From Candidatus Peribacteria bacterium (GTDB taxonomy: Bacteria; Patescibacteriota; Gracilibacteria; UBA1369; LOWO2-01-FULL-3): a DNA stretch of 44,641 nt. The notes under the pieces are model-generated. The model ran no database searches, had not been told where the DNA came from, and worked only from the letters and a program-made list of their open reading frames with translations. Numbering within the stretch: position 1 is the stretch's first letter; each line of letters starts with the position of its first letter. This document shows positions 14,074 to 24,237 of the stretch, in pieces. Made by a program: the position numbers and the translations under genes. The stretch spans positions 67,807 to 112,447 of the forward strand of contig CALREX010000004.1 of the NCBI GenBank assembly GCA_943356465.1. The letters run 5' to 3'.

Positions 14074-15912
14074 ATGGGAAAAAAAGCAAATATCAAAAAA
14101 ATAGTAAGGGAATTAATCAAAGAAAAAGAAGGAAAGGATAAAAAAGATAAACGCACTATTCGAAAAGAGCTGACTAGAGAGATGTTAAAAGAGGAACAGG
14201 TAAAGGAAAAAACAAGAAATAAAGCAAAAGAAAAAGATCATAAAAAAGAAGAACCACGCAGTGTTGCGCCAAAAAAAGAAAAATTCAAAATTTCATTTAA
14301 TAGTAAGAAAATATTTGGAGTGGCACTTGTAATCATAATGCTTTCCATCCTTGTCGCCACAGGATATTTGTTGTTCGAAAAAGTTTTTAAACCAATACCG
14401 ATAGCCAAATATTTGCCTTCAGACAGGACAATGGCATTCATCGACTTGAATAGCAATTTTAACCATAATCAAGTTATAAAAAGCTTCGAATTGTTGAGAA
14501 ATTATCCGGAATATTCGGAAAAAAAAGTACAGGAAGTATTAGAAAAAAAGTTGGTTGGAAATTATGACGCTGACATAAGGCCGTGGCTTGGTAGAAGTAT
14601 GGGAATAGCTTTCCTTAAAGGAAGACAGGATGAAAAAGTACTGGAGACAATATATTTTGCAGAGGCGACAAATAAAGCAAATGCAAAAAAGTTTATAGAG
14701 AATAAAAAAACATACATAAAAATGCCATATGCCGGATATGACATGTATTCCTCAGAAAGTGGGGAAAAAATAGCATTTGTTGATAACTATGTGATTTATA
14801 GTGATGACAAAAAAGCTATAGAAAATTTATTGGATTTCGAAAGCTCACAAGATAAATCAGTATTTTCATCTGAAAAATATTCAAGGATATCGAACAACAT
14901 GCCTATCAATAAAATGGCTTTCTTATATGTAAATTTCAATCAAATATCAGAAGCATTTTTAAAAAATATTCCATTTTTAAAAAACATGGATATAGATTTC
15001 GGACAATTACTTCCATTGGTTAAATTAATGGATTCTGATGGCATGGCAGTTGTAGCGATAAATGATAAATTCGCAATCCAAAGTTTTCTGAATCTAAATA
15101 TAGATAAAGTAAAAGACAAGAAATATATAAAAATGAATCAAAAGTATTCAGCTGATATTACTCAGTACGTTGGAGAAAATGCACTTGCATTTTACGGAGG
15201 ACAAAACATAGAAGGTCAGTTAAAACGCTTAATAGAAATATTATCCAGCGGAAGACAGGAAGTCGTGGAAAATTTCGATAAAGTACTACAAAATTATACT
15301 CAAAAATATTTTGGTTCAGAGGTGATTTTTAATTTGGATATATTGCCTTTGCTTAAGAATGAATATGCGCTTGCTATAGAGAACGATGGAGGAAAGCCAA
15401 TATATAAATTCTTTTTGGAACTTTCCGATAAAGAAAAAGATGCAGGGAAGCTCGATAAAATAGCTGATAATTTTGCTAAAATAGGTGGGATATATAAACA
15501 AGAAGTTGTAGATCATACATTGCCAGACGGAACAGAGGCACAGGAGATTATGGCCGTACCGGAAGCGATAAAAAAAGAATCTGAGACATACAAAGGAGTA
15601 AAAATCACAGAACTACACATAGGAGAATCGAAAGGAATTTTCTATGCAATAATAGATAATATAGCTGTTATTTCGGACAGTTTTAATGGAATACAAAAGA
15701 GCATAGATTTAAAAGAAAACAAAAATAACCTGAAAGTATCTGCAACATTTAAGAAATTAATAGAACCTATTTTGAAAAATTCAGATGAAATTTCATACTT
15801 TAATATTGCGAAATTACTACCAAATTTACATTTACCAATATCGGAAGTAAGTGGAGGCAACAATTATTTTGACGATGGAATAGTTTCAATTAATTACTTG
15901 CATGTTAAATAA
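14074..15912 (+). CDS. Membrane-anchored protein, DUF3352-like
   Basis: 612 residues. Residues 1-78 are extremely rich in Lys/Glu and predicted cytoplasmic and helical. A single membrane helix spans about 80-102 (GVALVIIMLSILVATGYLL). The remaining 500 residues would be extracytoplasmic and open with IAKYLPSDRTMAFIDLN, resembling DUF3352 proteins ('YLP..T..Y..L'). Repeated patterns such as 'ALAFYGG', 'EYALAIENDG' and 'YKGVKITELHIGESKGIFYAIIDNIAVISD' support that assignment. The function of the family is unknown. It is followed after 2 bp by the DUF4012 gene with the same membrane layout, so the two probably form an operon and may act together at the envelope. Confidence 0.75.
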   Translation: MGKKANIKKIVRELIKEKEGKDKKDKRTIRKELTREMLKEEQVKEKTRNKAKEKDHKKEEPRSVAPKKEKFKISFNSKKIFGVALVIIMLSILVATGYLLFEKVFKPIPIAKYLPSDRTMAFIDLNSNFNHNQVIKSFELLRNYPEYSEKKVQEVLEKKLVGNYDADIRPWLGRSMGIAFLKGRQDEKVLETIYFAEATNKANAKKFIENKKTYIKMPYAGYDMYSSESGEKIAFVDNYVIYSDDKKAIENLLDFESSQDKSVFSSEKYSRISNNMPINKMAFLYVNFNQISEAFLKNIPFLKNMDIDFGQLLPLVKLMDSDGMAVVAINDKFAIQSFLNLNIDKVKDKKYIKMNQKYSADITQYVGENALAFYGGQNIEGQLKRLIEILSSGRQEVVENFDKVLQNYTQKYFGSEVIFNLDILPLLKNEYALAIENDGGKPIYKFFLELSDKEKDAGKLDKIADNFAKIGGIYKQEVVDHTLPDGTEAQEIMAVPEAIKKESETYKGVKITELHIGESKGIFYAIIDNIAVISDSFNGIQKSIDLKENKNNLKVSATFKKLIEPILKNSDEISYFNIAKLLPNLHLPISEVSGGNNYFDDGIVSINYLHVK

Positions 15913-23273: not shown

Positions 23274-23477
23274 CTACACCAACACTCCCTGTCCACCAAG
23301 CGCATAGTTTCCTCTGACGCGTTTCAATGCAAACATTCTATCAAAGAAACTACGTTTCTTCGCATTAAATCCATTTTTCCAACTGCTGCCACCAATGCTA
23401 GAACCAAAGCTTTTTTTCTGCATCTTTACAGCAGGTTTCTTTACTTTGTGAGTATCGATTGTTAATGTGATAAACAT
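23274..23477 (-). CDS. Small basic hypothetical protein
   Basis: 67 residues from the ATG at 23477; a TTG at 23516 would add 13. Very basic, with a Ser/Gly patch (SFGSSIGGSSWKNGF) and a C-terminal KKRSFFDRMFALKRVRGNY segment. No recognised domain. It fills the gap between tRNA-Thr and lexA on the same strand. An inverted repeat, TCTCG-N9-CGAGA (23503-23521), lies just upstream. The composition looks protein-like, but no homology supports it. Confidence 0.4.
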   Translation of the reverse strand: MFITLTIDTHKVKKPAVKMQKKSFGSSIGGSSWKNGFNAKKRSFFDRMFALKRVRGNYALGGQGVLV

Positions 23478-23564
23478 AGTTTTGGGGGTTAGAGAAATAA
23501 CGTCTCGCTTAAACAACGAGAAATACGTTTTAATTTTTTATAATTTTCTTAAACTATCTATTTT

Positions 23565-24179
23565 CTAATACTGCCTGATAAGTCCGGTTACAACTCCCTG
23601 AATCATCAAAGATTCTTTTGGGTAAATATCTTTGTAATTCTTATTTTCAGCTTTCAAATAATATTTTCCATTTTCCTTAACAAGTCTCTTCAAGGTATTT
23701 CCTTCATCAATCAAAGCAACTACTATATCATTTTCCTTTGGTTGTTTTTTCATATTTACAAGTACCAAATCTCCTTCAACAATTCCTGCATCTATCATGC
23801 TAAGTCCTGTGACTTTCAAGAAAAAATAATCTGTATTATTTTTTGCGAGCTCTTCACCAACTTTCATCCATCCCTCTACATATTCATCAGTAACGACAGG
23901 TCCACCAGCTGGAACAAATCCCAATATTGGCAAACTGAAAGCACCTTCATCAAGTTTTTCTTTAACGCTATTTAAAAGTCCTATTCCTCGAGGAGTATCA
24001 TCTTTTTGGATGTATCCTTTTTCTTTAAGAGCACTCAAATGCTTAAGGATACTATTGTCAGAACTGACTCCAAAGTGTTCGCGCATCTCGCGCAAAGTAG
24101 GGGACTTACCATAAGCCAGTTGATATTCTTCGATAAATTTTAGTACCGCTTCCTGTTTTTCTGTTAAAACTTGATCCAT
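23565..24179 (-). CDS. lexA: SOS repressor LexA
   Basis: 204 residues. The N-terminal winged helix (LTEKQEAVLKFIEEYQ, SPTLREMREHFG) binds operators. The C-terminal S24 peptidase domain has the cleavage site Ala91-Gly92 (FVPAGGPV), catalytic Ser127 (VTGLSMIDAGI) and catalytic Lys164 (NTLKRLV). The residue before the serine is Leu, where most LexA proteins have Asp (GDSM). LexA blocks SOS genes until RecA filaments trigger self-cleavage. Its own promoter carries two operators, so it is autoregulated. The operator sequence differs from both the E. coli and Bacillus consensus. Confidence 0.97.
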   Translation of the reverse strand: MDQVLTEKQEAVLKFIEEYQLAYGKSPTLREMREHFGVSSDNSILKHLSALKEKGYIQKDDTPRGIGLLNSVKEKLDEGAFSLPILGFVPAGGPVVTDEYVEGWMKVGEELAKNNTDYFFLKVTGLSMIDAGIVEGDLVLVNMKKQPKENDIVVALIDEGNTLKRLVKENGKYYLKAENKNYKDIYPKESLMIQGVVTGLIRQY

Positions 24180-24192
24180 AAATTTTTATAAG

Positions 24193-24237
24193 GTGAGTAT
24201 ATGCTCACAGTATAGGTGAGTGCTTACTCACCGTCAA
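24193..24237 (-). promoter_or_regulatory. lexA promoter with two LexA-type operators
   Basis: Minus-strand promoter TTGACG (24232-24237), 17-bp spacer, TATACT (24209-24214). The spacer and first -35 base hold the palindrome GGTGAGT-GCTT-ACTCACC (24215-24232). A second palindrome, GTGAG-TATATG-CTCAC (24193-24208), lies over the expected transcription start. Both fit GTGAG-N6-CTCAC, with centres 23 bp apart. Occupancy would block RNA polymerase directly. That LexA is the binder is inferred from position and autoregulation. Confidence 0.8.

Follow-up and report, generated by a model that had tools for sequence, protein, structure and literature searches.

The window, i.e. the whole stretch of DNA analyzed here (44,641 nt, positions 67,807–112,447 of the Candidatus Peribacteria contig CALREX010000004.1, assembly GCA_943356465.1), carries a lexA gene, two palindromes in its promoter and, 87 bp after lexA with no gene between, a second gene encoding a basic microprotein. 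The features are listed below, with the palindromes given in the letters of both strands:

24193-24208, forward-strand letters: palindrome GTGAGTATATGCTCAC
24216-24231, forward-strand letters: palindrome GTGAGTGCTTACTCAC
24232..24237, minus strand: −35 element TTGACG of lexA
24216..24231, minus strand: candidate operator 1, GTGAGTAAGCACTCAC, filling the spacer of the lexA promoter
24209..24214, minus strand: −10 element TATACT of lexA
24193..24208, minus strand: candidate operator 2, GTGAGCATATACTCAC, covering the expected transcription start of lexA
23565..24179, minus strand: lexA, 204 aa, with a winged-helix DNA-binding domain and an S24 autopeptidase domain (TIGR00498, PF01726, PF00717)
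23274..23477, minus strand: microprotein gene, 67 aa (MFITLTIDT...YALGGQGVLV)

On the minus strand, the promoter reads TTGACG-GTGAGTAAGCACTCACC-TATACT-GTGAGCATATACTCAC-CTTATAAAAATTT-ATG, with the ATG at 24179. The whole 17-bp spacer (24231-24215) consists of operator 1 plus one C, operator 2 starts immediately 3′ of the −10 element, and the two palindromes lie 23 bp apart, start to start. A sequence-only reading had described two GTGAG-N6-CTCAC palindromes here, one inside the TTGACG/TATACT spacer and the other over the start; both were found exactly where it had placed them, and an independent promoter scan returned the same arrangement (TTGACG-17-TATACT at 24237-24209). The outer five bases of each form a perfect inverted repeat, and the two are the only exact copies in the window, where shuffled sequences gave an expectation of 0.01. 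When two mismatches were allowed, the matches fell to chance level both in the window (8 vs. 8.3 expected) and in the genome (32 vs. 34 for the control), so that only near-exact sites are meaningful; a single-mismatch site inside an ORF (L006) was set aside as probably due to chance.

The lexA product matched TIGR00498 over its full length (residues 3–203, 166.1 bits against a cut-off of 110.95), and its Ala91-Gly92 cleavage site and Ser127/Lys164 dyad align with the E. coli LexA structures and are invariant in the alignment of relatives (A2). Its closest relatives belong to named Candidatus Peregrinibacteria (one labelled Peribacteria), with 94–100% identity over the aligned part. Second, diverged LexA-like proteins (26–45% identical) were also observed in several genomes (G037:C178, G034:C8, G001:C5, and others), and the genes of the first two adjoin Y-family polymerase genes.

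In the complete set of seven contigs of this genome (1.08 Mb), five exact sites were present vs. 0.39 expected from base composition, while the reversed-pattern control had no match in the same sequence. Two of the five are the pair at lexA, and the others lie 5′ of recA (approximately 37 bp upstream of its likely start; TIGR02012, 537 bits), radA (55 bp upstream; TIGR00416, 545 bits), and a Bro-N gene (38 bp upstream). The palindrome is thus present at both the lexA and the recA promoter, as is characteristic of an SOS operator, and the regulon is small here, comprising four transcription units.

Across 60 relatives, 273 sites were recovered vs. 23 matches to the control pattern, with at least one site in 59 of the 60 genomes. 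A subset of 147 distinct sites, mostly from the more complete genomes, was read together with the flanking sequences. The gene clusters behind them comprise lexA (37 sites), recA/radA (28), Bro-N (12), and dinD (5; identified by NF008573, 308 bits), as well as dinB, AntA, KilA-N/RhuM-like, RmuC-like, DUF2130, DUF763, and HNH genes; the KilA-N and RhuM labels were assigned by eye and the remaining ones from Pfam or NCBIfam matches. Divergent dinB and SRAP (SOS response associated peptidase) genes flank one site (L102). The motif is therefore kept in relatives and enriched at radA, dinB, dinD, SRAP, and RmuC-like genes, again in the manner of an SOS operator, and it does provide the direct handle on the SOS regulon of the lineage that had been proposed for it. 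The suggestion that it would be found near repair genes held for recA, radA, dinB, and damage-inducible genes; no uvr gene was among the targets of the sites read. We also observed that relatives of phage antirepressors, i.e. Bro-N (e.g. L001:1555-2382), DinD, AntA, KilA-N, and RhuM-type genes, account for a large share of the SOS genes in this order.

The position of the palindrome relative to the promoter is conserved as well. Of the 147 sites, 97 have a −35 element abutting the palindrome and a −10 element behind it, an arrangement (hereafter register) seen at 27 of the 28 recA/radA sites and at all Bro-N (12/12) and dinD (5/5) sites; among the nine lexA sites without it, seven are the downstream box. 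The search pattern itself dictated the ten half-site letters of these 97 sites, and the hexamers were also selected for; the C 3′ of the palindrome, present in 96 of them, was under neither constraint, and the middle six bases lean towards an alternation of pyrimidine and purine. The register is missing at the HNH family (1/20 in register) and at DUF763 (0/3), which were for this reason left out of the ordinary SOS promoters, and these 19 and three sites suggest that some GTGAG-N6-CTCAC copies may be recognized in another way or have another function. In the repeated HNH-nuclease family, the palindrome lies up to ~110 bp upstream of the gene (e.g. L133, L138, L143, L155, L167, and L168), and several copies occur in each of G042, G058, and G036.

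At lexA itself, a box in register was present in 34 of the 35 scoreable upstream regions of the order, confirming that the motif accompanies this gene in relatives; the members that deviate at lexA are L038, L189, and L191. A second box (≤ 2 mismatches) accompanies it in 30 of these 34 promoters, with CTTAC instead of CTCAC as its distal half in most of the family. The 23-bp separation noticed at the outset is correct for this lexA, but as a general rule it fails, since the spacing in relatives is 21 (n = 3), 23 (8), 24 (9), 25 (1), 27 (8), or 28 bp (1), and a fixed 23-bp distance was accordingly rejected as a defining feature. Such variability would argue against a rigid dimer–dimer contact and for two independent occlusions.

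Of 16 genomes sampled from the order, 15 contain the complete arrangement of hexamers and box, TTGACNGTGAGNNNNNNCTCACCTA (TTGACG-GTGAG-N6-CTCACC-TATAMT). It was absent from all 365 other Patescibacteria, the control pattern gave no hit, and the viral contigs searched for it contained no copy. Within the same class, nine genomes of family f19 have a different box, TTGACNGTGNACNNNNGTNCACCTA, once per genome, at lexA and in the same promoter slot, and this box occurs nowhere in the order of the window. More distant lineages have GGTGAACGATCGTTTACC near lexA, which contains GAAC-N4-GTT and is close to the Bacillus frame, while an intermediate lineage (L192, LexA 47% identical) has, judged by eye, the mixed boxes GTGAACTAAGTCTCAC and GTGAGCAGTACTTCAC. 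In the order, the recognition helix of LexA has the sequence SDNSILKH; in the lineages with GTGNAC-N4-GTNCAC or GGTGAACGATCGTTTACC, it is SKNA[VI]AK. This co-variation of box and helix, which covers few lineages and carries no statistical test, is the best argument available from sequences that LexA is the reader of the box.

The LexA and DNA-damage network of Patescibacteria has reportedly been studied before, by Sanchez-Osuna, Barbe and Erill in 2017 (doi 10.1111/1462-2920.13826), and there is a substantial chance, which we nevertheless put below that of the opposite, that the motif is the LexA box published then; this concerns its novelty and not its mechanism. When the later paper PMC8565304 counts the distinct LexA motifs, arriving at 17, it cites the 2017 study, which is in favor of an earlier publication. 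However, where PMC7739468 cites it, direct-repeat LexA motifs are being discussed, a context that would, indirectly, set the present palindrome apart, confined as it is to one order, and no open paper was found that combines LexA with Peregrinibacteria or Gracilibacteria. What was found is thus a well-supported variant of a known switch, specific to this lineage, which has possibly been described before.

As for the mechanism, the palindrome pair is very probably the operator through which LexA of Ca. Peregrinibacteria regulates its own gene. Its dimers would bind GGTGAGY-N4-RCTCACC and, because the 17-bp spacer is taken up by the upstream box, a bound dimer would occupy the place at which RNA polymerase has to make its contacts with the −35 and −10 elements, so that we infer repression by occlusion, which the downstream box over the start site would reinforce at lexA. 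Upon DNA damage, RecA filaments would trigger self-cleavage of LexA at Ala91-Gly92 through Ser127/Lys164, and this would free lexA together with the microprotein gene, recA, radA, and, in this genome, the one Bro-N gene. Another repressor, e.g. of prophage type or linked to Bro-N/AntA, might instead read the palindromes, lexA being merely one of its targets; the many Bro-N, AntA, RhuM, and KilA-N targets of phage-antirepressor type and the HNH family with its palindromes out of promoter register would be in line with this. We nevertheless consider it very unlikely, as lexA, recA, and radA are the most constant targets, two boxes occur regularly at lexA only, and the box co-varies with the recognition helix of LexA. 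Although the outer five bases of each palindrome are perfectly inverted, a role as an attenuator or terminator hairpin in RNA or DNA, in place of protein binding, is scarcely credible, given that operator 1 lies 5′ of the expected start and would not be transcribed, and that the site has a fixed place between the promoter hexamers of many genes.

The LexA operator pair would also control the microprotein gene if the two genes form an operon; a weak terminator-like hairpin was observed between them (23503-23521, minus strand) and, given its weakness, co-transcription is likely. Homologues were detected with a profile in 28 of the 60 relatives (24 of 30 family members, 3 of 3 in f8, and one in f6), a count that describes their distribution and is no independent test, since most of these sequences also built the profile. 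They are single-copy, adjoin lexA wherever the contig reaches that far, measure 51–73 aa, and are strongly basic and probably flexible. Searches gave no Pfam match and no convincing PHROG match, and a claim about the fold was dropped because the model was too weak (pLDDT 56, pTM 0.20). An ending of the form Qx[AV][MI][FYW] is shared by 20 of 26 copies, and most end in Qx[AV]MF, the version of most relatives being QxAMF; that of the genus of the window ends in QGVLV, without the final Phe. Sliding-clamp-binding peptides have the form Qxx[LM]F, and MutS in the window carries QLKLF. The ending resembles such a peptide and may be one. Several family members have dinB just after lexA and the microprotein gene. 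Y-family polymerases (PF00817) were found in none of the four genomes of the genus (G000–G003), the same search being positive in 11 of 14 control genomes. We regard as tentative and rather doubtful the idea that the microprotein, encoded second in an operon driven by the operator pair, is the first of a new SOS family acting on the replication clamp, as a brake or in polymerase handover.

The near-exact box can serve as a low-background marker of the DNA-damage regulon in this uncultured order of ultra-small Patescibacteria. It also indicates that the SOS set of a genus lacking Y-family polymerases is unusually small (lexA, recA, radA, and one Bro-N gene). Compared with known SOS boxes, the motif had been said to differ from those of E. 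coli and Bacillus, which is right in that neither core occurs at lexA. The LexA box of E. coli is CTGT-N8-ACAG, and its lexA promoter has two boxes; the only match in the window is at 15665, away from lexA. The order resembles E. coli in the two boxes at lexA, in autoregulation, and in the single box at most other targets, but has another half-site, and at most of its targets the spacer is taken up by the upstream box, whereas E. coli boxes lie at variable places. The core of the Bacillus (Gram-positive) box is GAAC-N4-GTTC, with no exact copy in the window. Here the claimed difference is smaller, since the half-site spacing equals that of the Peregrinibacterial GAGY-N4-RCTC, which is a near variant of the same frame: its half-site has G for A at position three and Y for C at position four, and the outer GT/AC is fixed. 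The boxes of other Patescibacteria (GTGNAC-N4-GTNCAC and GGTGAACGATCGTTTACC) share the palindrome frame but differ in the half-site, GAC or AAC in place of GAG, and in the helix, SKNA in place of SDNS. No gene other than lexA was found with the GTGNAC composite, whose box fills the promoter spacer there like that of the order. Within one class, LexA box and recognition helix have shifted jointly, with the slot in the promoter staying constant.
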